64,000 bases of DNA from Fragilariopsis cylindrus CCMP1102. Its lineage: Eukaryota; Bacillariophyta; Bacillariophyceae; Bacillariales; Bacillariaceae. The stretch is from the NCBI GenBank assembly GCA_900095095.1, contig FMBT01000339.1:124001-188000 (forward strand). The letters are read 5' to 3'. The notes under the pieces were generated by a model. It did no database searches and was not told where the DNA came from. It saw only the letters and a program-made list of their open reading frames with translations. Each line of letters begins with the position of its first letter. Position 1 is the stretch's first letter. Position numbers and translations under genes: made by a program. Of the stretch, positions 20,701 through 43,076 are shown in pieces.

Positions 20701-21032
20701 TATTAGAAGTAAATACGAATACATACAGTAGTTTGTTAACTAGTTAGTATTAGAGTTACAATGATGTTAGAGATTAAAGTGAGCGCAGTATGTTGTTTAC
20801 ATCCTGTGATCTAATCTCATGTATTCGTGTTGCTTCTGTTCAAAGCTATCTTCATCTATTATTGAGTGATGTGGCGATGTGGCGATACGATAGGTCTTGT
20901 ATTTGGATCTTATAAGCCAAGCAAGCCAAGTGTGAATCATATCCCATAACTGTTATTTAACTGCACCTCGGTTGTATCACAGTTGGTGGATAGTTAATCG
21001 AAGTGGTCGACTATCGCGCTAATAATTGAACA
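20701..21032 (-). repeat. 3' LTR of element B
   Basis: 332 bp, identical by eye to 36601-36932 (offset exactly 15900). The pol frame ends just inside it. Confidence 0.93.
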
Positions 21033-21635: not shown

Positions 21636-21853
21636 TGTAGGCGTAAGGCGAGTGTCACTATGGAATGACCGACCAGGACAGACCATATGAGGGGTATGAC
21701 CGACCAGGGTCAGACCACACATACACCGTACGAGTAGATATAGCCAATCATAGAGAGCTACTAAGCTCACTCTTCTAATAAACACTATTTACATACGTTA
21801 ATAGCATAGAAGGTCTTCAGTCTAGTGAACTTAGGTAGCTAGATACATTTACA
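21636..21853 (+). repeat. 5' LTR of element C
   Basis: 218 bp, identical by eye to 31002-31219. It contains a near-direct repeat: ATGACCGACCAGG followed by CAGACC occurs twice, about 33 bp apart, a possible transcription-factor site pair. Confidence 0.93.
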
Positions 21854-22100
21854 GGTTATGAGAACATATATCTTTTATCACTGTTAAAAGATAATATAAT
21901 AAAGATTAAACAACAGGGTTTCGTTATTAGCACACGACGTACATCGATATTAGCAACATCGGTGAAGACTTACGAAACAAGTTAGTGCACGTAAAACTGT
22001 ACCAAAGCATACAAAACAGCGCGTGCGTTGACATAAAATTGCAAAAATCGCTTAAATAATAAATAAAAGCACAACAACAAATTTCTACAATACTTGTACC

Positions 22101-25100: not shown

Positions 25101-25436
25101 ATCAACGCATTCGATGGAAAATCAAAGGAGAACGGATACTCAAAGGAAGGTAGCCAAAGATACTCCCTACGCAACAAGAAACAATGTGCATGTTGTAAGA
25201 TGGCAGGACACAGTATAGGTGATCAGATATGTAGAATTGGAGCTCAAATATCACACGCAACAAAATTCGCAACAACAAATAAGGAAACTTACGATACCAA
25301 TGCAGATAAGTACTACAAATCAAACCGTCCAGTAATGATCAACAGGGTCATGAGATCACTCCCAACCTATGCATCAGACGAAACAATAAGAGAAGAGTGT
25401 GAGGAATGGACCAAGGACGATGAAGAGGAAGAGTGA
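22101..25436 (+). CDS. Element C gag, 1111 residues
   Basis: An unusually long gag for Copia. A basic start is followed by a degenerate repeat (SEPPYERVGKAIRIVKSPP and SEPPYARRGNERRIIESPP, about 155-190), a long acidic Glu/Asp stretch (about 255-310), then extended coiled coil (about 340-560). The C-terminal half has a globular gag-like region (VIIPITNTVMLDIISPYHEE) and a short Cys/His cluster CACCKMAGHSIGDQIC that resembles a zinc knuckle. Confidence 0.85.
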   Translation: MTKKTKISRKSGKMQTSTLDTMPMSPPRGGRTIPKGFIPYEGIREEEIEALKLVFPLDGSNPYKDDAYNIKPFMPFSRYEESDHHAHLVTLHDEALEVDLKYVAIENLIKQMFSTQHAWTPSTWTTGSRYQYAPPLHATLFQSEPPYERVGKAIRIVKSPPSSEPPYARRGNERRIIESPPKIQLKDLDEETELDSSDTGSAWTVKSARQREKRARERDERSSSRQKAKQRLANSNSPQKLPTQRVQDISLLFDSDAEESEVENEEEVDDDVKEEQEELDDDEKEELDDTINRLEQQEEVYLQEQEETKSEVLNDNDSNHTTSVLGTDNESSRLGSNSIDLEEMIDKRMEEMMNRKMEVRYKDMDKRNTRMQQLEESASKQLKITRQMFTEAESKLLELTSKIDGVTSRIEEATTTIAEADATTTVLADHLEAAQVAMQLINTSRQLTAADATAMRSGAKKLAKRLTDHTDALVQDLQNHKDALAQDLQWTLSQLDPLRIKTSLNEAIVRIKSASDSSILGLSDMARSINKESRKNIIVENRLQSIATKTELATLTKKATDDLVITLQMIEDQSKAALTTIIDGPDFRQIIKTQIRAYIKTFPQEMSDALMKFSIDFFKDNDTIDHYIRGVASSVTDIGDITDKLEREIDGIATKWMNNNVGDITTGNIEREVDRIATEWMHTNVDKATDWTNDDKEFRPRGGGPPKTDPTTEEEKSYNEKMGEDDISTGETEEYTGLFSKAHKRFQEEQATRKARQAEEAALAETKRLGHISKSITRFGTMPMHKHCIPVKTLVTMEQAKQLYNEMYDDCLIETYPLTELKYLSPKGSCIPPMHNETDTTIATISHAIMRRLKVIIPITNTVMLDIISPYHEERNGYGALYAIMRRSCAFMKPTTQGWGPTWSKTMTPSAYVVELQASVAEHEMRHNTTYSEVQQSQEMLHQALQSYNTSIATKLSGDFNQWVLAHPKKPLPNTWKTTGLADLFADYPNTSNNKINTLSINAFDGKSKENGYSKEGSQRYSLRNKKQCACCKMAGHSIGDQICRIGAQISHATKFATTNKETYDTNADKYYKSNRPVMINRVMRSLPTYASDETIREECEEWTKDDEEEE

Positions 25437-25691
25437 CAAACATGCTGTCCTGAGAGATCGGTACAGCCTGCACGAAAGAAAACACCACACATACCATCGT
25501 CACCATCACCATCAGACAAATCAATAAAAGGAAATATAATCATCAACAAACTATCAAAACAACAACAACGACAAACGAAATCAAATGACGTACCACACCA
25601 CATCAACCATAACAATCATAACTACTGCTTTGTTGAAGCCCATACGAAGGATTTACAGGAACAACAAGCAGCAAATGATACCATCGTCCAG

Positions 25692-28600
25692 TTGAATAAA
25701 GAAAGGATGGCCATTGTCAATCGATTTAATCAATTATTATCTGAAACAGAGTGTAAAGATAATCTTTGTAACGAAAAGATAACTTGTAATGAATTCAATA
25801 ATATGGAAATGAAAAGTGAATATCTGGAAAAGAAAAATGAATATCTGGAAAAAGAACCAACAATCCTACCAACAGCCCGTAGAATTCTACAGGAAAAACA
25901 GAAAATTCAGAGCGTGGAAAATCTGGAGACGCAATCACGGGAATCAACAAAATCAGTTAAGACTACTCCAACGAATACGATTGAAAAATTACCAAATTCC
26001 GAGTCGGAGATGAAGACACATGTTTGTAAAGTATCGACGAATCCCCAATGCGGACAAGAACCAACAAACACGATTGAAGATTCCTTAACAAAAACACGTG
26101 GGAACGAAAACAAACAGAACAGTAATACACAACAAATACTTAACAATCATGAATCGGGAAACGAACAGAAAATTGATACACGTCTCATAATTAACACTAA
26201 GAGTACACGAACTGTAAAAGACTTCACGGACATCATCCGCGAATACAATACATATGGAGGGAGAACAATGCATGAGACAGGAGCTTATATCATCAACGCG
26301 ATTGAATATCGATACAACACGTGCAAGGCATATCAAAGCATAATCAGCGCGACTAAAGCAAAATCAAATTTTTCAATCACTTCAGCAGACCTCACTCCCG
26401 CGTACACGCCGGCCGACAGCCTAGGTTCAACACACGGACAACCATATAATATCAATGCAGTTAAACTACAGTCAACCTCAAATCGAAAATCAGTACGAGT
26501 AAAATTTAGAATCAAAAAGCTAAATAAGAGAGTCAATACAAACAATGAAGATGGGAATGAAATATTCAGTAAGAGTGAACAAGCACAATATACCACGGAA
26601 ATCAACGCACAAGGCGATACTGGAGCTAACTGCTCAGCAACTGACACGATTGATATCATACACAACTATGAAGAATTCGCAATCCCACAAGACGTTGGAG
26701 TCTTCTCCGACGATGAGACAAGTACAACTCTCCAAGCGTTGGGTGAAGGCGTGATTAAAATTTTGTCTGATCAAGGCTCTATTATGGAGTGGCCAGTGTT
26801 ATATACACCACTATCGAGTGGTACTGTACTATCCCCAGACAACTATCACTTCACTCATAAATTGAAATATTACGCGTTCTATCACCTTGGCACTAGTAAT
26901 AATACTGGTAAAATAGGATTTTTAGATTACAATCAAAATGAAATGGAATCGATTCAAATGAAAAGAACCAACAATGGCGAATGGTTGACATCTAATCAGG
27001 TCCTACTACCACACTCATTGAACAACAAACACATCATACGAGCAGTAACACGAAGATCGGATCGAATTCGGGACCTACAGATGGAGAGAAATGACAATAT
27101 GCAAGCAAAGGAAGATAGAATAATAATTGATCAACAAATCAATGAATCTTGGGCTACTGACATTGGAGCCCATCACTTCGAACAGATGAAGGAAGAAGCA
27201 CACCCAATATTCACTGACGTCAAGCTAAAGACAATGGATACACCACACCAATTATACACTCAGAAGATGAAGGAACTGGAACTATGGCATCAACGGATGG
27301 GTCATTGCTCAACAAGAACATTGAATGAGACAAGAAAATGTGTAGAAGGAATCCCTGATCTACCAACCAATACACCATTCTTCAAATGTCCATTCTGTGA
27401 AAGAGGCAAGATGGTCAAGAAGGGAGGCAAGAAAACAACAGATAAGGACAACTTCATACCGGGACAAGCGTATCATATGGATCTAGCCTTCGTAAGTGGA
27501 CCATCAAATCTGGAAATAGACGCAGGAAAGAATAGTGAAGCAAGACCAATCATCACAAAGAGTCGAGACGGATACATCGGATTCCTTACCATCATCGACG
27601 TATCATCAAGAAAGTTATGGACTCATCCAATCAAGAATAAAGATCCACCAATTGAATATATCAACAAGTTCCTCAAACGTCATGGTATTAGAACAACAAA
27701 CCCTTCCAAAGCAATTATAACAACGAGTGGTACTGGATATTTAGCCAAGTCAAGAGCATTCGACGAAGCAGTGACAGCACAACAGTACGTCATTCAACCA
27801 ACGGATGACGATATCGACTTCTTTGGAGACCTGCTACCAGACCAAGTTGGAGCGACGATCACTACAGATGGAGGAGGTGAATTATCCAAATCACATGAGC
27901 TCACAAAGCTATGTAACTCTCATGGATATGAAGTCAATTCAACAGCAGCGGACGCATCTTCACAAAATGGAATAGTGGAAAGACCACACAGGACGTTGAA
28001 GGAACGAATGCGATGTATGATGTACTCAGCAAGACTAGGAACAGAGTTTTGGGCGGATGCACTACTACATGCAACATGGCTGTACAACCGAACGTATCAC
28101 AGTAAGATCAAAATGACACCACTGCAAGCATTTTCAGGCCAAATACCAGCACTTGACAGCCTCATCACCTTTGGAGCTAAAATAACAGCGAAGAAGCCAG
28201 GTAGCCGACCAACGACATTGAACCCATGGTCGTATGATGGTATCTTCCTTGGATATCAAAATACTATGCACAACATCAAGTACTGGGATATCAACACAGG
28301 AGCAATCAAAACAGCTAAGCATGATTCAAAAGACGAGATACAGTATGGAGACAGACCAACGAATCGATCGCCAGCATCAAAACATCTTATGGAGGTATTT
28401 ACCGGAAGCGCCGACCATACTACTTACATGAACCCTGAAAGAGTAGATCTACACTTAAAAGATAAACTATCACCATCAGCAACAGAGATATTGGAAAGCA
28501 GCCTACTGAATTCACCATTACCATACACAGTAGCAGCAGCAGCAACGATGAACAGGAGACAACAACGATGGACGGATAGGAGGGTCAACAAACTAAAAAG

Positions 28601-31034
28601 AGCATTTCGACGACCAGAAATAGGAGATTTACAACATGAACTTGCAACATTAGATATATCAACAAACAAATATGTACACACCACATCACATACAATTCCA
28701 TTAAACGAAAAATCGTATCATCCAACATTAGGAATGATAGTAGCAACACACCCGGATATGAAACAAGCAATGGAATTAGTGGAGTTTCAAGTTGGAACAT
28801 CAACCCACCGTCATATTCGATCATGGAAGAGAAGATTAAGGGGGACAATAATATCAACAGTTAATAATCAACCAATTAAGACAGAGCAAGACATCATCAA
28901 CGCCATCCACCAAGCAAGAATTAACAATCAATCATCAATCAAATTAGAATTTGGATCATTAGTAGGCTTTGCAATGAGTGGAGAAGGAGTACCAACATTA
29001 CAATCGGATCAACTCAACGTAATCGCCCATCATCTCAACAGCATCAACAATGAAGAGGACATTTGGATAGACAAGACAAAATGGCCACAACAAATCGATT
29101 CAGGTGATTCAATTAGAGAAAAAGTAAGAATAAACATTATGAAACGTAACAAACTCAAGCTCACTCCAGAATGGGATGATTTCCTTAAATCAGAATGGAA
29201 ACAACTGGATCGTTACGAGAAAGTAGGCATGTTTGGAGAACCAGTAAAATCGGATCAATGGATGACAGTACTGCCATGGGTATGGTCTTATGTCAACAAG
29301 GAAGATCCACTAACCGGAGATACGATACGAAAATCAAGAGGCACATGCAATGGAGGACCACGATATGGAGCAGCAATCACACTTGCAGAAACATATGCAG
29401 CGTGTGTGGAACAGCCAGTCCACCGATTGACATGGGCAATATCAGCAGCAATGAATCTAATCTGTAAAGGATACGATGTAGGCAATGCGTTTGCAGAAGC
29501 ACCAGCACCAACATCTCCATTCTTTATGCGACCAGACGCCCAGTTTAAACAGTGGTGGGAGGAACACCTTGGAAAGGAGCCGATACCAGATGGATATGTG
29601 ATACCAGTTAGAAAAGCACTACAGGGACACCCGGAATCACCGCGACTATGGGACAAATACATCTCCAAGATGATCATTGATGAATTAGGCTTTACAGCAA
29701 CAGTACATGAACCCTGCCTCTATTACAAAAGAGATGACCAAGACAACTTGACACTCATCCTACGTCAAGTCGACGACTTTCTAGTGGCTAACAAAGATTC
29801 ATCACAGTGCGACCGAATAGGAAAACAAATACAAGATCGTATGACTAATCCACTTAATCAATTAGGTACAATTAGAAAATTCAATGGAGTTAATGTGGAG
29901 CAAACAAGATACTACAACCATGTCCATTGTGCAACATATATCGATAAGATTGTATCACATCATGGATGGAGTAATTTGAAAATTAGATCACCACCAACAC
30001 CAATGAAAAGTGATTCGAAGTACCAAGCAGATATACAGTCAAGTAGAGGACCAGAATCAATTAAAGAACAGAAGGAATTAGAAAAACGAATGGGTTTTAG
30101 TTACAGACAAACAATCGGTGAACTAATATATGCACTAACAGTATGTCGTGTGGATATATCAATAGCAGTAATAACGTTGAGTCAACACTCACATCACCCA
30201 GCTCAAATACATTATGAAGCAGTTAAGCAAGTATTTGGATACCTCCAGGCAACAAGAATGGATGGACTCACCTACTGGAGACCAAAACCTCGTATGGACC
30301 TTCCAATACGACCAGATCCATCACCAGTATCAGCACCATCTCAACTACATAAATTCGATGAGCAATGGAATGCATTAGAAATCACTGGATCCTGCGACAC
30401 CACATGGGCATCAGACAGAACTGAAAGAAGATCAATGGGTGGTATCATTATGATGTTAGCAGGAGCAGCAGTTTATTATCGAACGAGATTACAACCAACA
30501 ATAGCACAAAGCTCAACAGAAGCTGAATTCACGAATATGGCAGACGCTGGAAAAGCAGCTTTATACTTACGATGGATTTTAGAAGAAATTGGTATTATTA
30601 TGGATGCACCAACACCAATTCTAGCAGATAATCAAGGAGCAGTTCGTTTAGCGAACGCACAACAACCAACAAGAAGAACAAGACATGTAGAAATGAAACA
30701 CTTTATTATATTACAATGGACAGATGACAAGTTCATTGATTTTGTCGATACATCGACAGATGAAAATTACAGTGATTCTCTGAGCAAGCCAACAGGGAGG
30801 ACAAAATTTTACGAGCACACGGACGTCTTTATGGGAAGACGCAAACCGGCATATACTACCTATATTGATCATTCTAATGACAAAGCACACATAATCAATT
30901 ATGTGTCCGTCTCCACTTACAGATCTAACCCACTTATATCACTATTACAGTCTGCATCACAGTACAATTCCGATGCTCTAGATTCTGTAAGTGTGGGGAA
31001 GTGTAGGCGTAAGGCGAGTGTCACTATGGAATGA
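25692..31034 (+). CDS. Element C pol, 1780 residues
   Basis: Copia order. Protease motif GDTGANCSATD; pre-integrase zinc finger LWHQRMGHCS...CPFC; integrase core with Asp in YHMDLAF, Asp in TTDGGGEL and Glu in GIVERPHRTLKE. A PDZ-like segment lies at about 28700-28970 (LRGTIISTVNNQPI, then SSIKLEFGSL) before the reverse transcriptase (CKGYDVGNAFAEAP; LRQVDDFLVAN). RNase H has SCDTTWASDR, SSTEAEFTNM, ADNQGAVRLA and RHVEMKHFII. The first about 280 residues are low complexity and Asn/Thr/Glu-rich. Confidence 0.9.
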   Translation: MNKERMAIVNRFNQLLSETECKDNLCNEKITCNEFNNMEMKSEYLEKKNEYLEKEPTILPTARRILQEKQKIQSVENLETQSRESTKSVKTTPTNTIEKLPNSESEMKTHVCKVSTNPQCGQEPTNTIEDSLTKTRGNENKQNSNTQQILNNHESGNEQKIDTRLIINTKSTRTVKDFTDIIREYNTYGGRTMHETGAYIINAIEYRYNTCKAYQSIISATKAKSNFSITSADLTPAYTPADSLGSTHGQPYNINAVKLQSTSNRKSVRVKFRIKKLNKRVNTNNEDGNEIFSKSEQAQYTTEINAQGDTGANCSATDTIDIIHNYEEFAIPQDVGVFSDDETSTTLQALGEGVIKILSDQGSIMEWPVLYTPLSSGTVLSPDNYHFTHKLKYYAFYHLGTSNNTGKIGFLDYNQNEMESIQMKRTNNGEWLTSNQVLLPHSLNNKHIIRAVTRRSDRIRDLQMERNDNMQAKEDRIIIDQQINESWATDIGAHHFEQMKEEAHPIFTDVKLKTMDTPHQLYTQKMKELELWHQRMGHCSTRTLNETRKCVEGIPDLPTNTPFFKCPFCERGKMVKKGGKKTTDKDNFIPGQAYHMDLAFVSGPSNLEIDAGKNSEARPIITKSRDGYIGFLTIIDVSSRKLWTHPIKNKDPPIEYINKFLKRHGIRTTNPSKAIITTSGTGYLAKSRAFDEAVTAQQYVIQPTDDDIDFFGDLLPDQVGATITTDGGGELSKSHELTKLCNSHGYEVNSTAADASSQNGIVERPHRTLKERMRCMMYSARLGTEFWADALLHATWLYNRTYHSKIKMTPLQAFSGQIPALDSLITFGAKITAKKPGSRPTTLNPWSYDGIFLGYQNTMHNIKYWDINTGAIKTAKHDSKDEIQYGDRPTNRSPASKHLMEVFTGSADHTTYMNPERVDLHLKDKLSPSATEILESSLLNSPLPYTVAAAATMNRRQQRWTDRRVNKLKRAFRRPEIGDLQHELATLDISTNKYVHTTSHTIPLNEKSYHPTLGMIVATHPDMKQAMELVEFQVGTSTHRHIRSWKRRLRGTIISTVNNQPIKTEQDIINAIHQARINNQSSIKLEFGSLVGFAMSGEGVPTLQSDQLNVIAHHLNSINNEEDIWIDKTKWPQQIDSGDSIREKVRINIMKRNKLKLTPEWDDFLKSEWKQLDRYEKVGMFGEPVKSDQWMTVLPWVWSYVNKEDPLTGDTIRKSRGTCNGGPRYGAAITLAETYAACVEQPVHRLTWAISAAMNLICKGYDVGNAFAEAPAPTSPFFMRPDAQFKQWWEEHLGKEPIPDGYVIPVRKALQGHPESPRLWDKYISKMIIDELGFTATVHEPCLYYKRDDQDNLTLILRQVDDFLVANKDSSQCDRIGKQIQDRMTNPLNQLGTIRKFNGVNVEQTRYYNHVHCATYIDKIVSHHGWSNLKIRSPPTPMKSDSKYQADIQSSRGPESIKEQKELEKRMGFSYRQTIGELIYALTVCRVDISIAVITLSQHSHHPAQIHYEAVKQVFGYLQATRMDGLTYWRPKPRMDLPIRPDPSPVSAPSQLHKFDEQWNALEITGSCDTTWASDRTERRSMGGIIMMLAGAAVYYRTRLQPTIAQSSTEAEFTNMADAGKAALYLRWILEEIGIIMDAPTPILADNQGAVRLANAQQPTRRTRHVEMKHFIILQWTDDKFIDFVDTSTDENYSDSLSKPTGRTKFYEHTDVFMGRRKPAYTTYIDHSNDKAHIINYVSVSTYRSNPLISLLQSASQYNSDALDSVSVGKCRRKASVTME

Positions 31035-31219
31035 CCGACCAGGACAGACCATATGAGGGGTATGACCGACCAGGGTCAGACCACACATACACCGTACGAG
31101 TAGATATAGCCAATCATAGAGAGCTACTAAGCTCACTCTTCTAATAAACACTATTTACATACGTTAATAGCATAGAAGGTCTTCAGTCTAGTGAACTTAG
31201 GTAGCTAGATACATTTACA
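31002..31219 (+). repeat. 3' LTR of element C
   Basis: 218 bp, identical by eye to 21636-21853; the pol frame stops within it at 31034. Confidence 0.93.
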
Positions 31220-31224
31220 CCATT

Positions 31225-34200
31225 TGCTGTTGATGATGCGATGTCATTAATTGCATGTAGCATAGTGTCATCTATAGCTCTGGCGTAAAATAGGAATTTC
31301 CCTGTGACGCGTTGTATGAATTTGATTTGATCTTCATCTAATTTATTTGTCAAGTCTTCTTTTACATATTGAACTTTGACACCATAATCAGGTCGGTCGA
31401 TCTTGGAAGGTCCTGAATGTCGTTGTTTTGGGATGATGTGGTTGAATTCCTTCAGTGCTTGTTCTACATATCCATCCATGGAGCAGATGACTTCACGGTC
31501 AATATAGTTCCATTTTAGGTGAATCCCGATATATTGTTCAGCTTTCCAATCAACTTTTAATGGGTATTTATCTCGTAGTGCGGTAACTAGGTGTTCTACA
31601 TCCGCTTTGTCGGTGTACTTGATACCAAAATCATCCACCACTAGTGTAAAGTTGATGTCGCGTTCCTTGTGGCTGAATAAGCCATCAGTTCGTTTTTCTT
31701 TTACGTAACCATATTTTTCTAAGTGTTGTACCAAGTCGTCATGTGCAATCTTACCGGATTGTTTGAGACCATACCATGCTTTCTTGATTTTGGCATATAC
31801 AAATCCGTTAACTACTAACTTGTCTAATGAGTAGTGTTTGATTATATTCGGTGGTATCATATCATATTTGAATCTGACATATTCTTCGTCCGGCAATAGC
31901 GAGCATAAGTACATGTTCGATATATCTGCGGTGCAGTACTTGGCACCTGGAGTGGAAACGACTGAGTTCCAATGCATCTTGATTGTTTCCATTGAAGCTG
32001 TATGCGTTGTTACGTTGCCTTCGTAGTCAATCCTATCGCCTCCTGCTGTGATTCTAGTACGGTATGGTTCTGACTTTTCTGGTCTAACAGCAACTACATA
32101 TCTTGGATACGTTACTTGTTTGTTACTGGGTACGTCCCCTTTGCGGATCCAATCCAGTACATCTACTCCTTCAGTTTCACCATAACCTTGGAATAAACGG
32201 GCAAATTCGTTTTCTCCTGATTGGAGCCAACGATTCTTGATTACAGGATCCTTGTGGTTGATTAGATCTCGATACTTCGCCATCTTATTGAGGCTGTCGT
32301 CCCAGACGGCGCCTGCAGCTCCGAAAGCAAAGTTTGGTTGTAGCTGTTCTACTGCCTTGCTGTATCCATTGCTAAACCTATTTGGTTTTTGTTGCACTGT
32401 AGGATTTTGGTTATATCGGTTCAGACGTTGTACCTTTTTAGGACGTTGGCTTTTGGCTGTAGGTATATGAATGTTGGTTGGTACGTGATGCCGAATTGGA
32501 AGTAGTAGCAATGCCTTTTTGGTTGGTTTAGTATACTGTTGACTCTTCTTCCTGTATTGCTTGATTTCATTGTAGGTCATCTCTTCTGTATCACCATCTC
32601 GGTACACTATCTTGTAGTACTGTTCAATTGGATCATATTTTGTGATTTCTCCTTCGTGGTAGCCACTGCTGAATTTTCGTCGTACAATGGTACCGTTGAT
32701 AAACACTCTGTTTGTTTCTGTGCTGGACCTTGTTACTCTTTGGGTGGTATTGTTTATAGTTTCCACCCTTGGAGGTGGCACAGGACTTGTTGGTGCCTTA
32801 GTTGCTGTATCATCTACTTGTAAGCAGAGTATCTTCTGGATTGCAGTTATGGCTGTATGTAGGTCCGTACCTTGGTTCAGAAATGGAAAATAGCTTGGGG
32901 GTTGAGATAATACTTGATGGAGGTCTTGTAGTACCAAGGTTAGACGATCGATAGGTGTGACCTTGGGTAGCGAACAATGTGATGGAAAGAACTCAACCGT
33001 ATTGGAGATACGATTTTGCTTGGTATCACGCATGTAGCAAGTATAGTTTCTGTAGTGATGAGGGGCTCTTTCAATGTAAAACCCATGACTGCCATGGTTG
33101 GACCAGCTACCGCGTTCACCTCTTCGATCATGAACAATAACTTTACATCCAACTGGGGCCATTGGAGTTCGATTGAAATCAAATTCACCATGGACCAGTG
33201 TATATGCTGATATTAACGGGTTGATCCTTGATGGGCGCATTAGATTCATAGCTAATACTGTTTGTTTAATAAACAGGTCCCAACAGTTCTTCGGAAAACT
33301 CGGATCAGCGCCTTCTCTGAAAGCAATGAGCTTGGACTTGAAGGTTTGAATGGCACGTTCTGCATGGTTCAATCTATGGTCTCCTGGCGATACGATCTGG
33401 TAGTCTAAATTCAGTTCCCCTATTGCTGCAATAAGTTCTGTTGAGATTTCATTATCTAATCGCATTACACGCGCTGTGAAACCTCTTTCCTTGAGTTCAT
33501 CATAACAAAACTTGAATGCTGCTACGAGTTCACTTGACTTCCTTGATTTGAGAGGCACTGCATTGATGTAGTTAGTGTCATAATCGTACATAACCATGAT
33601 GTATTTGTGGCCTCTTGCTGATGTAACAGGATATCGTCCTGGCAAATCCATTGCAATTAGTTGTTTCATATCATTACCATCAATTAAGAAGGTACCTATG
33701 TCATGTAATTTCTTCTTAAGTTCAATACGTTCTTTTCTAACTGATAGGTCAATGATATTCGATGTTCTGACATTCTTCTTGATCATTTTCTGGTTCCCAA
33801 GAGTAGTTTGTTCTTTCTTGGTGCAGTGTTTTCGTACTCTATCTGCGCTCAGTCCCGGCCATGACTTGAACCAATTGTTGTTGATACAGTTGATCCATTC
33901 TGGTATAGAAGGTGAGCCTAACGTCATGTGAAAGAAGTTTGTCAATGCTGCGACTGTTTGCACTTCGTATGCGCTAGCTGCAGTAGCAATCCCTGCGGTG
34001 TGATTCACCCTTGGAAGTGCATCCACCCTTGGAAGTGTATGCGCCTCGTCGTGTATTGGCACCGAATAGAGCCCATTTTGCCGTCGTCCTTCCATAACGG
34101 TTGTACCAGTAAGGATTGGGGGCTTGTCGGTGACTGTCACTTTGTTTTGTGAAAATAGGACGTGTAAGTTGTTGTCACAGAGCTTTCCCACTGATAAGAG

Positions 34201-34686
34201 GGGCGTTGATACGTCATCAAACTTGTGGCAGGTACGTGCTAGTGGTGGGAGCTTTGCGAGCGACAGGACGTCTGTAGATGTGGACGTCATTATGGAGTTA
34301 TTTGCACACTTCACTTTCATGCCATTGGACGTCGCCTGATGGTTGTCTCCGTGGTACGTTGTTGGTAAGAAATGGTCTGTTGCTCCAGAATCAATAGCAC
34401 CTCTTGTTACGGGGTACCTGTCGATCAATACGTTGCAAACTTTTAAGGCTGCAGGTTTTCGTGTTGGTCCGCATATAAGATTGGATGGAAACGATACACG
34501 GAGTGATCTCCTGTTGGCATTCGGAGTGCATGGTACAAGTTGTTTACGATATACGGTAGGCGTACGTGGTTGTTGATATAGATTTCTCGAAGGGGATAGA
34601 TATGTAGTTGCTTTTAACATATAATTATTATTATTATTATTATTAATGGTTAATACACAGTCACTACATTTATCAATATCCATCAC
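31225..34686 (-). CDS. Element B pol, main part
   Basis: Protease motif GAIDSGATDHFLP; integrase core with Asp in IAMDLPGRYP, Asp in RLDNE and Glu in HAERAIQTFK; then a Tudor-like module at 32548-32705 (VRRKF, HEGEITKYDP, YYKIVYRDGDTEEM). Reverse transcriptase shows ADISNMYL, AWYGLKQSG and LVVDDFGI (catalytic Asp pair). The frame continues into the LTR of C, and RNase H lies beyond C. Confidence 0.85.
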
Positions 34687-34698
34687 CTTCCCACGTCC

Positions 34699-36567
34699 TC
34701 ATTCTGGATTGTCGTACGGCTTATGATCTACTGGGCTCCACCACTTGTTATGGAACTCGTTCCTGGATTCATTACCTCCCATAGGATTCTGCATGGTCGC
34801 GTCATCTTTATGGTCTTTCTTTTTCTTGAATGAATGGCAACCCTTGCTGTCATGGTTCAAGTTACAGCCACACGAGTAGCACCAGAACTTCCACTGACGC
34901 CATACGTTGTACAATTCCTTAGTTGCCTTTTCCTTCCTTCCTCCCTTTCCACCACCAGTATTGGTTGATTTCATGGTATTGATTTCAGCTTTTAGAGCCT
35001 TCACTTCACGGAGTAGATCGGACATTGCAGCTAACTGCATACCGGAGGCAGCAGTACCCGAAATGGATCCTGATACAGTACCGGTACCGTCGGTGTCAAC
35101 GACTGATGGGACGCTTGAAGATTGGAAGGCAGTCTCCAAATGTAGTTGATTGTTATTGAGGGTTTGCACTTCTGTCTCGTATTTCGATTCAAATGCGTCG
35201 ACGCGGGCGATGAGGGCTTGTTGAACACTCATTGCACTATTGTCAATACCATCTTCGGTTAGTTTCTGCAGTTCCTTAATGTACAGCTGCTTAAACCGTT
35301 TCCATCGACCGATGACGGGTTTGTGTAGCATATCGGCTTCCCACTTGTCTTCAATCAATCGGAGATACGTGTTGTTGTGGCTCCCACTACTACGGATCTT
35401 GGTCTGGCAGTTGATGATGAGGGTATCCCATGAATATTCAAATTCAACATTGGAACTCCCTGAAAGGATATCGATACAATGTTTATCATGTTCCATCTTC
35501 TTCAAGTATGATACCGGTCCTTCAGGTGATGGCACGTACGCTCGTGCAGTGATGCACCCCATTAGATCGATATATGCTTTCTGTTTCTTAACACGATCTG
35601 ATACTTTTCCTTCAATGAAGTTGAGAGCTAGGCGGACGGTATAGTTCAATGGAAGTGTTCCATAATCATTCATCTGCTCCTTCATGGTTTCGGGAAATCT
35701 TCTTACCGTCGCTTGTAGAGCTTCAGCATTCCAATGGGTCTCCTTCTCGTAGATCTTCTTCAGCGCTTCATACCTTCTCCATGTTCCACTGGCATCGCCG
35801 GTGGGTAAGGCCACTTTCTTTGCCGGTGGTGGCAGTCGGGCAAGATCGTCTCCATATCTCTCGCAGTTGCGCTTCAGGGTATCCACCAGATATGCATGTC
35901 CTGCATCTCTTTCGGTGTGTTGGCATCCTTCTAGTGCATTACCTAATGCCTCCCGGAATACAACAGCATCAGCAAAGTTGTAGTTGCTACTTGCTGGTGA
36001 TTGGAATTCCCGGCCTAGGTGATCATCGATCGATGGTAGATCCTTTCCCATACTGCCAATGCTGGATATCGATACAGTCGATGCCGTGTCGTTGTCGTCG
36101 TCGTGTGGTGTGTAGAGAGCTGGTAGTGAATCGTCAGGTACCGTGGTGTAGAAGTTTTCTAATATATTATCGATATATGGTTGGTTACGTAATACGGTAT
36201 ATTCTAATTGGGTTCCCACAGTAGGTACTAATTCTAAGTACTGTCTACTGATATCAACGGTTCGATACGCCGTTACGATGTGGTCTGTTGAGCCTGAATC
36301 TAGGACGCTTGTTGTTGTAGCTGCGATACGGTTTAACGTTGAAACCGGATCTACTAAATATGCTGCGTCGCTGTTGCCTTGTGCTGGTTCCACAACACTG
36401 GTGACACTGGATGTCGATGCGTCGTCTTCGGAGTCGGAATCTTCCAATAGACCAAATGGATTGTTGTTGTTGTTGTTGTTGTCTTGATCGTTGTCGTCTG
36501 GACTGATGATCCTGTTACGATTACGATTAGGTACAGTGTTCCAACCGGTAGGAGTTGTTGGTATCAT
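34699..36567 (-). CDS. Element B gag
   Basis: 622 residues. The start is Asn/Asp-rich. A protease-like motif VLDSGSTDHIV lies near residue 91. A helical gag body follows (TVRLALNFIEGKVSDRVKKQ; WDTLIINCQTKIRSSG), then a coiled-coil-like part (MSDLLREVKALKAEINTMK) and a zinc-knuckle-like CYSCGCNLNHDSKGC near the C-terminus. Confidence 0.8.
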   Translation of the reverse strand: MIPTTPTGWNTVPNRNRNRIISPDDNDQDNNNNNNNPFGLLEDSDSEDDASTSSVTSVVEPAQGNSDAAYLVDPVSTLNRIAATTTSVLDSGSTDHIVTAYRTVDISRQYLELVPTVGTQLEYTVLRNQPYIDNILENFYTTVPDDSLPALYTPHDDDNDTASTVSISSIGSMGKDLPSIDDHLGREFQSPASSNYNFADAVVFREALGNALEGCQHTERDAGHAYLVDTLKRNCERYGDDLARLPPPAKKVALPTGDASGTWRRYEALKKIYEKETHWNAEALQATVRRFPETMKEQMNDYGTLPLNYTVRLALNFIEGKVSDRVKKQKAYIDLMGCITARAYVPSPEGPVSYLKKMEHDKHCIDILSGSSNVEFEYSWDTLIINCQTKIRSSGSHNNTYLRLIEDKWEADMLHKPVIGRWKRFKQLYIKELQKLTEDGIDNSAMSVQQALIARVDAFESKYETEVQTLNNNQLHLETAFQSSSVPSVVDTDGTGTVSGSISGTAASGMQLAAMSDLLREVKALKAEINTMKSTNTGGGKGGRKEKATKELYNVWRQWKFWCYSCGCNLNHDSKGCHSFKKKKDHKDDATMQNPMGGNESRNEFHNKWWSPVDHKPYDNPE

Positions 36568-36586: not shown

Positions 36587-36600
36587 CTTTAATCTCTAAC
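36587..36600 (-). other. Primer-binding position of element B, self-complementary
   Basis: The 14 nt directly adjoining the 5' LTR (minus strand GTTAGAGATTAAAG) pair perfectly with the LTR segment at 36666-36679; 65 nt separate the sites in RNA sense. The arrangement matches that of element A, with an unrelated sequence. Confidence 0.75.
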
Positions 36601-36932
36601 TATTAGAAGTAAATACGAATACATACAGTAGTTTGTTAACTAGTTAGTATTAGAGTTACAATGATGTTAGAGATTAAAGTGAGCGCAGTATGTTGTTTAC
36701 ATCCTGTGATCTAATCTCATGTATTCGTGTTGCTTCTGTTCAAAGCTATCTTCATCTATTATTGAGTGATGTGGCGATGTGGCGATACGATAGGTCTTGT
36801 ATTTGGATCTTATAAGCCAAGCAAGCCAAGTGTGAATCATATCCCATAACTGTTATTTAACTGCACCTCGGTTGTATCACAGTTGGTGGATAGTTAATCG
36901 AAGTGGTCGACTATCGCGCTAATAATTGAACA
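36601..36932 (-). repeat. 5' LTR of element B
   Basis: 332 bp, identical by eye to 20701-21032. It contains GTTAGAGATTAAAG at 36666-36679, the inverse complement of the primer-binding position next to it. TTATAAG near 36810 is a possible TATA box in element sense. Confidence 0.93.
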
Positions 36933-39900
36933 CATTTCTTTAGTGGGTCGATACGAGACAGCCACTGTACCATCATTGACTTTGTCAGTGATGTAGAAAT
37001 ACCTAATGTTGATATGTCTTGTGCGCTGACCACATGACCTTCTTCCATTCACAGCCAACTTGATGGTGCTCGTGTTATCTTGTTCTGCAAGGTTCTTTGT
37101 GCCCAGCATCTTCAATGGATCGTCAACAGGGTAGTGTTTCACTTGGTCCTTCATGTAGAGGCTAATCCATTCAATAAATGTAATGGTATCATCAATGCCA
37201 ACCAGTTCGGATTCTGTCGAGCTCCTTGTAGTGATCTTCTGTTTAACAGATCCGGAGACAAGAGCTCCAGTTCCCATCGTTAGGGAGTAGCCTGTGTGGC
37301 TTTTCATATCCATGTGTACCGCGAACGCTGCGTCTATACTCCATGTAAGGATTCCTGACTCGTCCCATCCTAATACAAGAGGAAGGAAAATAGTATCTCG
37401 TATGTATTGGATAACCCTCTTCAACTTCTTGTAGTCGTCTTTATCTGGTTTAGCAACTCTTGTACATAAGAATGCTACAGCAGTTTGTAGGTCCGGTCTT
37501 GCCCTCTTGGATGCGAATAGTAGTCTAGCCACCGTCCTGTGGAAGTAATCAGCGACTTCATGGCTTAGCTTCTCACATTCTGCGTTCACTTTAAACAAGT
37601 GTTCACTGGCCACATTAACTGCAGTTCCATCCATATCATCAGGTGCTTCCACGATAATATCTTCAAGATAGTCATACATAGTTAGCTTAACTTTTCCATC
37701 TTCTGAATAATCGATAGTCATTCCCAGATACTCGTGGATATGCCCATAGCTGGCTGCTAGCTTCCTAATTTCACCAAACTCGGCATTCAACTTGTCAATC
37801 AGATCATCCAAAATCGATTGGTCCACATGAGACATCTTGAGGTCATCAACATGAAATTGTATGGTGCATTGTTTTCCATTAATCATCTTATTGAACGTGC
37901 ATTCGTCATAGTTATTTGCCTCATATCCCAATGATTCAAGGAAACCTCTTAGCTTGTCATAAAACAAACGAGCTCCTAGTAACGTTCCATATATGGCCTT
38001 GGTCACCTTACCAACTAACCATCTCTTTCCGTTTGTCGTAAATTTAATGAGCTTCTCGTATTCGGGTCTGATATCACATATCATATCAACCATCACTCCC
38101 TCAAACTTGATGTAACACTCTTTGCCTTCATCCTGTGGATAATCAGCCTGGAGGAAAGCTCCGGGGATATCGCCCACCACGACGCATCTTCTTTCAATTG
38201 CATCAATCAAACAACTGCACATTAGGGCTTGTGTTTTGACTGTGGGTGAACTTGATTCAGCTTTGGTGATATAATCTCTTTGTGACCGACCATCCGCACA
38301 GCCTCGCGCTTTTATCTTACCGCATCTCTTTCTTTTGAGAAACATGAGGTAGCTAAGTGACAGCTTGAACATATCATACGTCACTGATCGTGGGTGTAGC
38401 ATTTGTATCACGTCCCTACCAATCAGGTTCTCATCTAACTCTTTGATTGTAGCGTCGTAACCTGGGCCACCAAATATGGTCAGCCCTTTCTTGAATCCGT
38501 ACTGTGGCGTTGACAGAGTCGCTTCCAGATTACCAAATCCTTTTATAATGGATAAGCAATAGTTAGCTTCACCCTTTCTGTTCCAGTAGTTACCATCCAA
38601 TCCTTTCATTCTTGGTGGTTGCTCTTCTTCTTCTTCTTCTTCTGGCGGCTCTGCGCCTTCATCAACCTCGCTGATGCTGTCGTTGTCATCGCTTGGGTTC
38701 TCTTCAACGCTATCGTCACTTGCGTCGTCGTCATCTTCTTCTTCAACCACATTGAGCTCTTCAAGCATAGGGTCTTCATCGATATCGACGGCTGGTTCAT
38801 CTGGTGCTTGGTCCACTCCTGCTTCCTCATCATCGTATTGATGTGGGTTCATGTTGTGGTCATCAACGAGCACGCTGTCGTCATCCTCTGGCTCGTATGA
38901 CTGGTCCGATGCATCGTCGTCATCAAACTCTGGCTCTTCGCCTTCTTCGTTGCTTGGTTCTAGGTCAAGGATGGTTGTTAGATTGTCCATATCACCAAAG
39001 ATCAGCCCGTCTGGTTGGTTCTCGCTCCTTCCTTGTTCATTAATAGTATTAATGATTTCGTTCGTCATAGGTATGCCCTTTCCTTCGATCCCGATTACTC
39101 TTGGTACTGAATTTCGTTGCTTGGTGGTGATGTTGTACACAAAGTGCCCACCCCCTCCGTCATTTGGTCGTAAATACAGTGCATCAAACGTTCTGGATTT
39201 CTCCACACTGTTTGAGCTTCCACCGGGGACCCCATACACGTATGCACCGGGCATATATGGAGGGATAAGTAGTTTCTTGCCTGTTATGATTTGTCTAGGA
39301 GACATTGTAGGGTGCACTCCCCCTTTCCTGTTGATAGCATTCATTAGTTGGACTACTGTATAAATCACTTCCATAAGCAGTCTTTTTGGAATCTTCGTGA
39401 ACGGCATCATCGATCGGACACCTCGGATACGTTCCTTGGTGAACCTGATACACCTCTCAATGAAGTGCACATGTGCATTCCTGTCACAGCATATTAGGTC
39501 GATCTCTTGCAGGGCAAGTGCATCAAGACAGTGCTGGAAAGCTCGATCTGCATACATAGTTTTTATTTTAAAGCCTCGAAGCTTATAAATATTATCCATC
39601 TTTTTAATAGCTGCAATGTACATGTCGTCCGACTTGTTTCTAATACATATGCATTGGATGAACCTTATATGTTTGGAAGTGGCGATTAGAAACGCGACTC
39701 CATTTACGTGCATAACATCTATGCCGACAGTCACCTCAGAATAGTGCTTAAGTATCGAAGGTGGTACTCCGAGGATCTGATCTTCTCTGGGCATTCTGTT
39801 TGTTCTTTGGACAGTTTTACCTTGAACCGAATGCTTGTTGGGCCCGAAAATAGCCTTAGCTATATTTATGTTTCTACGACTCACACCACACTCCTTAATC

Positions 39901-40613
39901 GCACCTGTCTCTAGTCCATGTGCAAAGTCTTCATCAGAGGGGAGGCATAAGCAATCTTGGATGTACCTAGCCATCGTAGCCCGTTTCACATCTAGTGCTG
40001 AAAACAGTTTCTTCTCTTCTTCAACTGTAGTTAACAGGGTGGCTGGGGATGATCCGTCATCCACATGTAAACAGTATAGCCCATTTGGTTCCACTCCGAA
40101 TCTGACGTATTCGCCATTATCTTTGTAGACATAGAAGGCATTGTCAACTCTAGTATCAAGGGTGATACGATGAAGCTTAGAAAGCGCGGCGAGCGAAATC
40201 AGGTTTGCTACTCCATCTTTATGTAGGTGTAAATCGTCTTGTGGTAGAGGAAGTGTTTTTAGATCATCACATAGTTCTCCTACTTGGTTGTTAGACCAGG
40301 ATTTACCTCCACAGTGTATAGTCGTTGGATTTGAGTTAGCTTTCACTTTTTGTAGCATGTCCGCATTTGCGAACAGGTGCAGTGATGCTCCGCTATCAAG
40401 AACCAAAGCATTCAGTGAAATATTTCCACGGGAAAGTTTGTTGTGTCCACTCCTTGCTTCACTAGGTCTCATTGTTGGAAACAATTGGGCATTGGGAAGT
40501 ACTTCATTACTATCTTCTGCAAACTTGACTGTGGCGAATGCATAGGATGTTGGTGTTGCATCGGGGATATCAAGGATCGATGGCTGTTGATCCTCCCCCA
40601 CATTGATTACCAT
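36894..40613 (-). CDS. Element A pol polyprotein (Copia order)
   Basis: 1239 residues. A protease-like motif LVLDSGASLHLF lies near residue 70. The integrase core shows Asp in VGIDVMHVNG, Asp in MYADRAFQ and Glu in HFIERCIRFTKE. A very acidic linker (about 570-680) precedes the reverse transcriptase (VVGDIPGAFLQADYP; FHVDDLKM as the catalytic Asp pair) and RNase H (SIDAAFAVH, SSTESELVG, QDNTSTIKLA). Integrase before reverse transcriptase defines Copia/Pseudoviridae. The end of the frame runs into the LTR of element B. Confidence 0.85.
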   Translation of the reverse strand: MVINVGEDQQPSILDIPDATPTSYAFATVKFAEDSNEVLPNAQLFPTMRPSEARSGHNKLSRGNISLNALVLDSGASLHLFANADMLQKVKANSNPTTIHCGGKSWSNNQVGELCDDLKTLPLPQDDLHLHKDGVANLISLAALSKLHRITLDTRVDNAFYVYKDNGEYVRFGVEPNGLYCLHVDDGSSPATLLTTVEEEKKLFSALDVKRATMARYIQDCLCLPSDEDFAHGLETGAIKECGVSRRNINIAKAIFGPNKHSVQGKTVQRTNRMPREDQILGVPPSILKHYSEVTVGIDVMHVNGVAFLIATSKHIRFIQCICIRNKSDDMYIAAIKKMDNIYKLRGFKIKTMYADRAFQHCLDALALQEIDLICCDRNAHVHFIERCIRFTKERIRGVRSMMPFTKIPKRLLMEVIYTVVQLMNAINRKGGVHPTMSPRQIITGKKLLIPPYMPGAYVYGVPGGSSNSVEKSRTFDALYLRPNDGGGGHFVYNITTKQRNSVPRVIGIEGKGIPMTNEIINTINEQGRSENQPDGLIFGDMDNLTTILDLEPSNEEGEEPEFDDDDASDQSYEPEDDDSVLVDDHNMNPHQYDDEEAGVDQAPDEPAVDIDEDPMLEELNVVEEEDDDDASDDSVEENPSDDNDSISEVDEGAEPPEEEEEEEQPPRMKGLDGNYWNRKGEANYCLSIIKGFGNLEATLSTPQYGFKKGLTIFGGPGYDATIKELDENLIGRDVIQMLHPRSVTYDMFKLSLSYLMFLKRKRCGKIKARGCADGRSQRDYITKAESSSPTVKTQALMCSCLIDAIERRCVVVGDIPGAFLQADYPQDEGKECYIKFEGVMVDMICDIRPEYEKLIKFTTNGKRWLVGKVTKAIYGTLLGARLFYDKLRGFLESLGYEANNYDECTFNKMINGKQCTIQFHVDDLKMSHVDQSILDDLIDKLNAEFGEIRKLAASYGHIHEYLGMTIDYSEDGKVKLTMYDYLEDIIVEAPDDMDGTAVNVASEHLFKVNAECEKLSHEVADYFHRTVARLLFASKRARPDLQTAVAFLCTRVAKPDKDDYKKLKRVIQYIRDTIFLPLVLGWDESGILTWSIDAAFAVHMDMKSHTGYSLTMGTGALVSGSVKQKITTRSSTESELVGIDDTITFIEWISLYMKDQVKHYPVDDPLKMLGTKNLAEQDNTSTIKLAVNGRRSCGQRTRHINIRYFYITDKVNDGTVAVSYRPTKEMCSIISAIVDHFD

Positions 40614-40639
40614 TGGATTGGGCTGTAGACGCTTGGTAT

Positions 40640-42187
40640 TTAGTGCCTGCCCCTGCGAAAATCCTGATAATCGTGATCACTTGGATCGAGATACAAGTAA
40701 GCTCCAGCTGTATCCAAATGCATAACATCTTGTAAGGTGTCGAATTGGTCTGGAAAGATGCTTGTAGGAGGTCCCGATCTGCTTAGATATGGTAATAACT
40801 TGTAGAGAGTGAACTGTGTGGTTGATAGTCCAAGATATTTAGATTCTTTTCGATAGATTCGAATGTTACCACCAAATCTTTGCCTTACATCAATAAGGTT
40901 GACAATATTGGTCGACTTGTTGCCATTGATCATAGTCACTTTTGGTGTATCGACTGCAGTATACGTAAGGTATTGCCGGACGGATTGCTCCATCTTAATA
41001 GGTACGTTTAGCCTGGTGACGTTCATTGTACTACCTGTGTCAGTTAAAACACCAATATTGGTAATGACACTGTCGTCATGGGATGTGAAAGTAGCAGCAC
41101 TACTATCTTCATCCGTATCGCATACATACGATGCTTCACAGATAACTGTTTGAATGTTTCCATTGCCAACTGTGGTGCTCGCACTCGACACTGATGATGT
41201 CATAGACGTTCTAGATTGGAGGTCTGCCATTTCATCATCAATGGAGTCATCATAGGAAAAATCATCGTTGTCAAAATCCATTGAATCATTTGTCATGTAC
41301 GATGAATCGTCTTGGCCATCAATGTGGACAATATTAAATGGATCGTTTGAATCTTCTGACCCATCGCTTGAACTATCATCCGCCGCTCTGTCATGTAGGG
41401 ATGGCATCTGTTCATCATCACTTGGGTAGTAATGATCACCAATGATGATACACGCTACCTCACCGAGGTCCTCGGCCTCAAACTCTTCCTCAGTGATTGG
41501 TTCGAACGCATTTTCATGTAATATTCCATTGTCCACCACTGCCGCGAGTACCAATGCCCTGGTGGACTGGTCCTCACTCTCATGGATGTGGGCTCCTGCC
41601 ACGTTTCCATCATCATTGTTGCTGTTGGCGTTATTGGTGCTGTTGGTGTTGTTCCTGTTCCGGCCTCCGCGATTTCTTTGGTTTGGATTCGGATTGGTCA
41701 CCACATCTTCTTCGTATCTGTCAATAAGCTCGAATGCCTTTGAGGCAGTGACGGGGTATGCGTCCGTGTTGCCTGTTAGGAATTGGTTCTTCAAGTTAGT
41801 TTTCAAAGTCTTGCTTTTACATCCTTCTATCATCAATACTGAGACGATTAAATCATGCGCTTTCTTGTCATAGATCTTCTTCTCTGCTGGTGTCATTCCG
41901 AGGTAGGAGACCAGTGTTTCTCCTGCATCCAGTAAGAACGGTTCATAGAACTTGGTTCCGAATACAAAATAACCACCTGCTCTGCTTGCATTTCCAACAT
42001 ACACCGACAGATGTCGCTTGTACTGCGCAGTGTCCACTGCTGTTGGGGCGTTCTTGGGTTTCTGCATGTACGTAATTGACTTCCGAATGTGTCTCAGCCT
42101 GCCGAGTGGTTCCCACGTTGACGATTCGTTGGTGGAACAGGTTTCAAGTAGTAGCTCAATAAGTTCAATGGGGCATTGACCAGCCAT
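40640..42187 (-). CDS. Element A gag-like frame 2 with protease-like motif
   Basis: 515 residues. The N-terminal half is helical and gag-like (LDAGETLVSYLGM, FELIDRYEEDV) and is followed by an Arg/Asn-rich linker and a long acidic Asp/Ser stretch. Toward the C-terminus VLTDTGSTMNVT looks like an aspartic-protease active site (D-T-G). A separate D-S-G motif begins the next frame. Confidence 0.6.
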   Translation of the reverse strand: MAGQCPIELIELLLETCSTNESSTWEPLGRLRHIRKSITYMQKPKNAPTAVDTAQYKRHLSVYVGNASRAGGYFVFGTKFYEPFLLDAGETLVSYLGMTPAEKKIYDKKAHDLIVSVLMIEGCKSKTLKTNLKNQFLTGNTDAYPVTASKAFELIDRYEEDVVTNPNPNQRNRGGRNRNNTNSTNNANSNNDDGNVAGAHIHESEDQSTRALVLAAVVDNGILHENAFEPITEEEFEAEDLGEVACIIIGDHYYPSDDEQMPSLHDRAADDSSSDGSEDSNDPFNIVHIDGQDDSSYMTNDSMDFDNDDFSYDDSIDDEMADLQSRTSMTSSVSSASTTVGNGNIQTVICEASYVCDTDEDSSAATFTSHDDSVITNIGVLTDTGSTMNVTRLNVPIKMEQSVRQYLTYTAVDTPKVTMINGNKSTNIVNLIDVRQRFGGNIRIYRKESKYLGLSTTQFTLYKLLPYLSRSGPPTSIFPDQFDTLQDVMHLDTAGAYLYLDPSDHDYQDFRRGRH

Positions 42188-42196
42188 GACAGCAGT

Positions 42197-42784
42197 TTAC
42201 CTACCATCGTGTTGTAACTCATCCCATACCACTGTTTCGAACTGTCCCTTTATTGTAATAAAGATGTGAGTTGCATTCTTTTCATACTCAAGGAAAGCTT
42301 TAAGTGTGTGAGTGTACTCTGCCTTCCACATGTCGTACGCAATCCTGTATTCCTCCTCGCCAGTACCATTGTATGCAAATACATTATTGGTTACAGTACC
42401 GTACGTTCGTTGCGATGGTGGTGTTCCGATGAAATCATCTCTTTCCAATCTGGTTAAGTCAGTGATTGATTCTGCCCATCTACTGTAGCCTTTTGCGGCG
42501 CAGTACGTGATTAGTGCTTCTAGCACATCAACAATCTGTGTGGCTTGGTTGTGTCCTACAGTGACTGTTTTCTCATAGAGTGCCGTATCGGCTCCTGCAG
42601 CTCCTTTGAACTGGCTTTTCCTTGTGGACGCGTTGTTGTTGTTACGGTTACCTCTGTAACCTCGTCTGGCGCCATCGTTGTTGTTTCCTCCCGTAGCAGG
42701 GGGAGTGTTACCACTGGTTGGGGTAGAAGTCATTATTATTTTTGATATCGAAACCTTATCTATTCTAAGGAATAATGTGTACAA
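42197..42784 (-). CDS. Element A gag-like frame 1
   Basis: 195 residues with a Gly/Asn/Arg-rich start (GARRGYRGNRNNNN), then a helical region (QIVDVLEALITYCAAKGYSRWAESI). Position right after the 5' LTR supports a gag role. No zinc knuckle is visible. Confidence 0.6.
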   Translation of the reverse strand: MYTLFLRIDKVSISKIIMTSTPTSGNTPPATGGNNNDGARRGYRGNRNNNNASTRKSQFKGAAGADTALYEKTVTVGHNQATQIVDVLEALITYCAAKGYSRWAESITDLTRLERDDFIGTPPSQRTYGTVTNNVFAYNGTGEEEYRIAYDMWKAEYTHTLKAFLEYEKNATHIFITIKGQFETVVWDELQHDGR

Positions 42785-42825
42785 CAGACTCGTCGATGGT
42801 TTCCTCTATCACTATCTCTGTTCCG

Positions 42826-42840
42826 ATTGTTATTTGATAA
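42826..42840 (-). other. Primer-binding position of element A, self-complementary
   Basis: The 15 nt directly adjoining the 5' LTR (minus strand TTATCAAATAACAAT) are exactly repeated in inverse sense inside the LTR at 42933-42947. This is where a tRNA primer would normally pair. In RNA sense, 92 nt separate the two sites. Confidence 0.75.
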
Positions 42841-43071
42841 TGTTATAATCTAAGGTATTCTACAGTGCTAATCCGTAAAGTATCTAGAAGCAGTTAATAA
42901 AAGAAATAAGTTAAATCCTTTATAATGTTAAGTTATCAAATAACAATGATATATCATTGTCAGTCAGTTATTTCCATATTTCCATACAGAGATTTTCCTA
43001 TTACTAATTCAAGTAATTGAGTACGCGGTATAGTATCGCGGTATCCAGTAGAAACTAGATAAGTTCCAACA
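42841..43071 (-). repeat. 5' LTR of element A
   Basis: 231 bp, identical by eye to 20266-20496. It contains TTATCAAATAACAAT at 42933-42947, complementary to the primer-binding position outside it. Confidence 0.95.
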
Positions 43072-43076
43072 GTTAT

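Follow-up and report, generated by a model that had tools for sequence, protein, structure and literature searches.

How a retrotransposon would prime reverse transcription from a site that matches its own long terminal repeat (LTR) is the question raised by a 64,000-nt stretch of the diatom Fragilariopsis cylindrus CCMP1102 (assembly GCA_900095095.1, contig FMBT01000339.1, positions 124,001 to 188,000 of the forward strand), referred to here as the window. The assembly searched comprised 67.9 Mb, and the window is positions 124001-188000 of its contig C66. Segment 20261-43076 of the window consists of three nested Copia elements, C inside B and B inside A, each with a 5-bp target site duplication (TSD) and an identical LTR pair (Table 1). 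In A and B, the predicted primer-binding site (PBS) following the LTR is complementary to a segment of the element's own 5′ LTR. By far the best explanation, and one that the sequence makes very probable, is that A and B are Copia elements priming reverse transcription with their own RNA, as does Tf1 of Schizosaccharomyces pombe.

The original prediction had described 42826-42840 of A as a perfect 15-nt complement of 42933-42947 and 36587-36600 of B as a perfect 14-nt complement of 36666-36679, the complements lying 107 nt (A) and 79 nt (B) from the LTR end and both stems beginning at the first base after the LTR. Each of these statements was borne out. The LTR edges that it had assumed agreed with the LTR pairs and TSDs of both elements (GTTAT at 43072-43076 and 20261-20265 for A; CATTT at 36933-36937 and 20696-20700 for B), ruling out misplaced edges and fixing the start of both stems at the first base 3′ of the LTR. 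Pairing halts at this edge in both elements and does not extend into the LTR. The complementarity is perfect and far exceeds chance. When gaps of up to ~150 nt were allowed, only two distinct exact inverted repeats of 15 nt were present in the whole window, the A stem and an AT-simple repeat at 12909; there were four of 14 nt, those beyond the 15-nt pair being one at 20095 and the B stem. When the upstream 230 nt was shuffled with dinucleotides preserved, an edge-anchored stem of the same length was obtained in 0 of 2000 shuffles for A and 0 of 2000 for B; these results and the inverted-repeat counts ruled out a chance origin. The predicted leader folds of A and B include the stem, and the B leader was more stable than its shuffles (z −2.73).

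Co-variation of the two arms across copies, which the original prediction had put forward as a check, was found in both the A family (three pairs) and the B family (two pairs). Pairs were counted by script; MAFFT misaligned the short joined strings of arm and PBS. A junction with element interior was present in 12 of 21 loci examined for the A family, those left out being eight loci and the unmapped L076, which had no recognisable PBS and had mostly been picked as LTR-only matches. The 11 nonwindow copies differed from the window copy at three adjacent stem positions, with both arms changed, while the other 12 stem pairs were invariant except in L061, where one cell was unpaired. In the comparison of A with its relatives, 99.3% of cells were paired, a value reached by 1 of 500 shuffles, and the three pairs changed on both sides were likewise reached by 1 of 500; sliding the partners by one to three columns abolished every both-side change. 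The B family had the junction in 19 of 21 loci (L097 and L098, without a recognisable PBS, were left out). Two copies, L094 and L095 (termed B2), differed from the others at two adjacent positions with both arms changed, and their pairing extends to predicted RNA nucleotide 1; a wobble pair was present at the inner end of the stem in L079. The count of both-side-changed cells and the covariation score were each reached by 0 of 500 shuffles, and sliding the partners by one to three columns left at most one of the two both-side-changed pairs.

Searches with the pol of A detected many further genomic elements at ~38-66% identity, and searches with that of B detected many at ~32-61%. Fifteen stretches were taken around the expected 5′ LTR edges of distant relatives (38-62% protein identity). 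A self-complementary stem was found for the intended element in 11 of these stretches and for another element in one more: eight had exact stems of 12-17 nt (L119, L120, L122, L123, L125, L127, L130, and L131), three had nine exact pairs plus mismatches (L126, L128, and L129), and L121 contained a further element, on the opposite strand, with a 14-nt stem. The junction was not located in four stretches, namely, for the intended element of L121, for L124, and for L132 and L133, which by homology end short of it. A 12-nt stem of the L127 kind was also present in L036. Fifteen stems were tabulated, a set that includes A2 (L059) and B2 (L094) and lies apart from L128 and L036. The stem search itself selects for pairing, the first nine pairs being present by construction, and the fair test is that of the shuffles, in which 12 of the 15 stems were never reached in 2000 trials each and the other three were reached once. 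Self-primer/PBS pairs of differing sequence fall into eight or nine groups in this genome, and their differences ruled out a single conserved sequence motif as the basis of the stem.

The geometry of the 15 stems was nearly constant. Pairing was present in all 15 at positions 1 to 9, in 13 at position 10, in 15 at positions 11 and 12, and then in 11, 12, and 8 at positions 13, 14, and 15. Beyond this point, it fell to 7, 6, and 5 of 15 at positions 16 to 18 and 3 of 15 at position 20; pairing in 11 of 15 at position 19 was taken as chance. The pair just inside the junction was mismatched in 14 of 15 stems, the exception being L122, with one extra T-A pair. An A following two pyrimidines (YYA, mostly TCA) was located 15 or 16 nt from the 3′ (inner) end of the stem in 14 of the 15, the next most frequent offset being 9 (7 of 15). 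In A and B, this initiator-like YYA lies at 42947 and 36680, where self-priming needs the RNA to start; the latter is one base away from the 36679 proposed originally. Should the RNA begin with the A of the YYA, the stretch that pairs would be its 5′ end, with the cut falling at a constant length.

We infer the RNA start, the cleavage and use of the primer, and the rewriting of the PBS from these features. Transcription would start at the YYA inside the LTR, and the first 15 nt of the RNA (16 in some relatives) would fold back onto the PBS after the 5′ LTR. The RNase H of the element would then cut after nucleotide 15 or 16, and the resulting 3′ end would be extended into U5. On the general scheme of reverse transcription, the primer would also be copied during plus-strand synthesis, so that the PBS could be rewritten in each round; such rewriting would explain how the arms stay matched while their sequence drifts. 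Self-priming explains five observations at once: the coincidence with the LTR edge, the length of the stem, a near-constant geometry with differing sequences, the joint changes in both arms, and the absence of a matching tRNA from the set compared.

The positions of the LTR edges were examined in seven relatives, since other genomic copies of an LTR are expected to match up to the edge and not beyond it. For L119, four of five LTR-only matches, including its own 3′ LTR, stop at the base preceding the stem (query 294), and one reaches query 297, 3 nt further. Three LTR-only copies of L125 (99-100%) stop at the base preceding the stem (267), and two 99% copies of L130 stop at the edge (240). Matches also stop exactly at the edge for L120 (260/260), for L127 (copy L066), and for L131 (copy L029). 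The L126, L128, and L129 elements and the extra element of L121 have the end ...CTCAACA in common with L127.

Several observations count against self-priming or reduce the weight of the evidence for it. The match of L130 to its own 3′ LTR overruns the edge by 8 nt (to 248); overruns of 8 nt and 2 nt were also seen in a second copy of L127 (L033) and in an LTR copy of L122, respectively. The edges of L123, L126, L128, L129, and the additional L121 element were set by the stem together with the ...CA end and hence are not independent of the stem. The stems of L126, L128, and L129 show a C-A mismatch after their nine exact pairs. Inverted repeats of 11-13 nt occur away from the junction in L119, L120, L122, L124, and L127, making 12-nt stems weak evidence by themselves, and a relaxed scan gave off-junction candidates in L126 (one), L127 (two), and L128 (one). 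The overall stability of the A leader was only slightly above that of its shuffles (z −1.45). With respect to co-variation, the PBS of L061 is changed on one side only, two both-side-changed pairs were reached by 66 of 500 shuffles in the B family, and each family offers one compensated event, the counts being of sequences rather than of events. For the start site, the YYA of L125 lies at 18. By groups of related sequences, a YYA at 15 or 16 was present in eight of nine (nominal P of ~9e-6), a value that is optimistic because these offsets were picked after the data had been seen; L123 is perhaps not independent of A, as the first 11 bases of its PBS are common to the relatives of A, and merging the two gives seven of eight. 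Diatom core promoters are little known, and YYA as a predicted diatom start is a weak premise. In the excerpts of one study, the initiator (INR) consensus YYA+1NWYY is mammalian, the oomycete INR is narrower, and T. pseudonana appeared to lack both the oomycete combination of INR and flanking promoter region (FPR) and the FPR (PMC3599244).

An improbable alternative is that a tRNA or tRNA half is the primer and that the LTR segment serves only as a stem that covers the PBS or has a regulatory role in priming, packaging, or dimerisation. Stems near primer sites are known in retroviruses, and leader folds that contain the stem would fit such a role. The sites of A and B both lack the initial TGG needed for pairing with the 3′ CCA of a tRNA. 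The tRNA set used for comparison was compiled from a genome search that listed 63 places from 2708 candidates; ARAGORN gave 59 hits, in partly overlapping loci, corresponding to 39 distinct strings. This set is incomplete, with tRNA-Met confined to the organellar-looking contig C419, and this point favors the alternative. Against this set, the longest 3′-anchored match of 12 self-primers was 7 nt and the longest match anywhere was 6-9 nt, no better than the maxima of 8-10 in 200 letter shuffles each. The 15-mer of A occurs four times in the assembly, always in A LTRs or PBS, including the copy on contig C522; the 14-mer of B occurs 56 times, with 52 occurrences in B-family places, 4 elsewhere, and none closer than 200 nt to any of the 63 tRNA places. 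A host tRNA matching either PBS was found neither in the incomplete set nor with the exact genome-wide patterns, and neither Rfam nor tRNA scanning of the window yielded a match. Standard priming of A and B by a tRNA 3′ end was rejected on the lack of an initial TGG and of a match in this incomplete set and with the exact genome-wide patterns. Furthermore, a fixed tRNA would not permit the PBS to change jointly with the LTR among relatives. A masking stem accounts for the pairing alone and fits worse than self-priming because the stem halts at the LTR edge (14 of 15) and its length matches the distance to the YYA.

Element C differs from A and B in this respect. No junction-anchored complement of at least 5 nt was found in its LTR, and the LTR is directly followed by GGTTATGAG, which resembles a half-tRNA-Met primer site; the host initiator tRNA is not in the tested set. 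Drosophila copia is primed by a half tRNA. The GGTTATGAG site looks like that of half-tRNA-primed Copia elements such as Osser and Bryco, whereas A and B have no such site; an excerpt describes 1/2tRNA-Met sites in both Osser and Bryco (PMC6317226). Self-primed and tRNA-primed Copia elements seem, from these sites, to share this genome.

It is very improbable that the primer is the 5′ end of a second packaged RNA copy, or a small RNA cut from an LTR transcript, rather than an intramolecular fold. The sequence predicts the primer but does not distinguish intramolecular from intermolecular pairing. Tf1 has, however, been described as pairing intramolecularly (PMC7175516, in excerpt), and with arms 42-145 nt apart, folding within one molecule would be easy. 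That the inverted repeat acts at the DNA level, for example as a site for integrase or for regulation, or is a palindrome arising by chance is scarcely credible: integrase sites do lie at LTR ends and the fetched stretches contain other 11-13-nt inverted repeats, but one arm is outside the LTR and hence not at the element end that integrase recognises, the position is fixed while the sequence differs between groups, and 12 of 15 stems were unreached in 2000 shuffles.

The assignment of these elements to Copia (Pseudoviridae) follows from the reverse transcriptase (RT) model RVT_2, which matched A with 51.3 bits, B with 31.6 bits (equal to the cut-off of 31.6), and C with 56.3 bits. The RT regions of A and B are only 22% identical over 296 aligned positions. 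Ahead of the RT, SH3_retrovirus scored 25.5 bits in C and 19.5 bits in B (cut-off, 27), and gag_pre-integrs scored 29.1 bits in C (cut-off, 28.4). In the scanned frames of A, no integrase-side model was found. The scanned frames of A and B gave no gypsy RT or chromodomain model at an E of ≤0.01 and hence no sign of membership of the Tf1/sushi group of Ty3/gypsy. With RVT_2 and a genome containing 27 silicon-transporter family matches (best, 756.9 bits), A and B have the characters of diatom Copia elements; they share host group and superfamily with CoDi and are likely the same elements. The pol of B additionally encodes, between the SH3-like match and the RT, a PTM/DIR17-like Tudor domain (PF21743; 43.3 bits; cut-off, 27.2) at 32557-32694 on the minus strand (residues 669-714 of the frame 31186-34698). 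A chromatin-reading domain of this type could bear on target choice.

Comparison with known systems places A and B closest in mechanism to Tf1 and Tf2 and to Tj1 of S. japonicus, the last described, in excerpt, as self-primed by its sequence (PMC4600332). In these elements, as predicted here, the PBS complements the 5′ end of the RNA, and the primer is generated by an RNase H cut at the inner edge of the paired stretch. In the excerpted account of Tf1, the first 11 bases pair and the cut falls between nucleotides 11 and 12 (PMC7175516). Unlike Tf1, which is Ty3/gypsy with 11 nt, A and B have a predicted 15-16 nt and the RVT_2 of Copia. The original remark that self-priming by a Copia element would be unexpected was too strong. 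Self-priming is established for Tf1 and has been proposed for other gypsy elements and, from sequence, for the plant Ty1/copia TAR lineage (Houba and Osr-1), so that A and B are not the first Copia proposal (PMC6317226, in excerpt). The host kingdom differs, and the TAR account, as excerpted, contains neither co-variation nor start-site geometry (PMC6317226). Fungal GalEa Copia elements also lack a recognised tRNA site and have a Conserved Hairpin Site in place of the PBS, but in the excerpts both hairpin halves lie 3′ of the LTR and a U5 complement was never found by the authors (PMC5445492). For CoDi, the main text of Maumus 2009 does not mention primer binding, tRNA, or self-priming, and its sole "PBS" is a buffer (PMC2806351). 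Self-priming in diatom elements was not found in the literature searched, which comprised open-licence papers only.

The three elements all look young, given their identical LTR pairs and 5-bp TSDs. The LTR of B terminates in TA rather than CA. Copies of the A and B LTRs, spaced as they are at 20260-21000 of the window, are present at G000:C522:100735-101475, which is probably the other haplotype of the locus. In the A-family LTRs (42948-42955 and upstream), conservation continues from the inner end to ~42952, just beyond the predicted RNA start, and is followed upstream by sharp divergence, as expected for a U3/R border.

Table 1. Positions of predicted priming sites and element parts in the window
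Feature	Position	Strand	Remarks
Element A PBS (predicted)	42826..42840	-	Immediately 3′ of 5′ LTR; no tRNA match
Element A self-primer (predicted RNA nt 1-15)	42933..42947	-	Perfect PBS complement; 3′ end at 42933; initiator-like TC before A at 42947
Element B PBS (predicted)	36587..36600	-	Immediately 3′ of 5′ LTR; no tRNA match
Element B self-primer (predicted RNA nt 1-15)	36666..36680	-	nt 2-15 pair with PBS
Element C PBS-like site GGTTATGAG	21854..21868	+	Directly after LTR
Element A 5′ LTR	42841..43071	-	231 bp, TG...CA; 231/231 identical to 20266-20496
Element A 3′ LTR	20266..20496	-	Primer arm copy at 20358-20372
Element A gag and pol frames	36894..42733	-	ATG at 42733; RVT_2 within frame 36894-40676
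Element B 5′ LTR	36601..36932	-	332 bp, TG...TA; identical to 20701-21032; B inserted in A
Element B 3′ LTR	20701..21032	-	Identical to 5′ LTR of B (100%)
Element B gag and 5′ portion of pol	31183..36567	-	ATG at 36567; interrupted by element C
Element C, nested in B	21636..31219	+	LTRs 21636-21853 and 31002-31219, 100% identical; TSD CCATT

An LTR match to A, B, C, or relatives was present in 7 of 30 tRNA loci with ~1.5 kb on each side (L029, L030, L032, L033, L036, L045, and L046), L045 and L046 looking like one duplicated locus, and in 0 of 12 host pieces of the window of a size like that of the tRNA loci; this small and uncontrolled comparison gives a hint of insertion near tRNA genes. At both G000:C23:1065-3500 and G000:C451:342129-343920, B-family copies lie ~1.5 kb from a tRNA gene, the tRNA genes of the two places having equal scores; this reflects either duplicate loci or a target preference. 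Elsewhere in the window, 56840-58150 is a coding tandem array with units of ~213/444 bp that encodes a Cys-rich repeat protein.

Textbooks present tRNA priming as the rule, and the case for self-priming is built on Tf1 and a small number of predicted groups. With two families showing compensated changes and the distance to a start-like site nearly constant, a single genome makes the mechanism directly testable. Such families can be missed by annotation that requires a recognised PBS, and one diatom genome paper, in excerpt, filtered on the polypurine tract and PBS (PMC7466962). Self-priming is probably a main and old mode of diatom Copia elements, present in lineages as divergent as A and B and based on a constant 15-16-nt ruler counted from the start of transcription; with the PBS rewritten in each round, primer and site would be free to drift together, independently of the tRNAs of the host.

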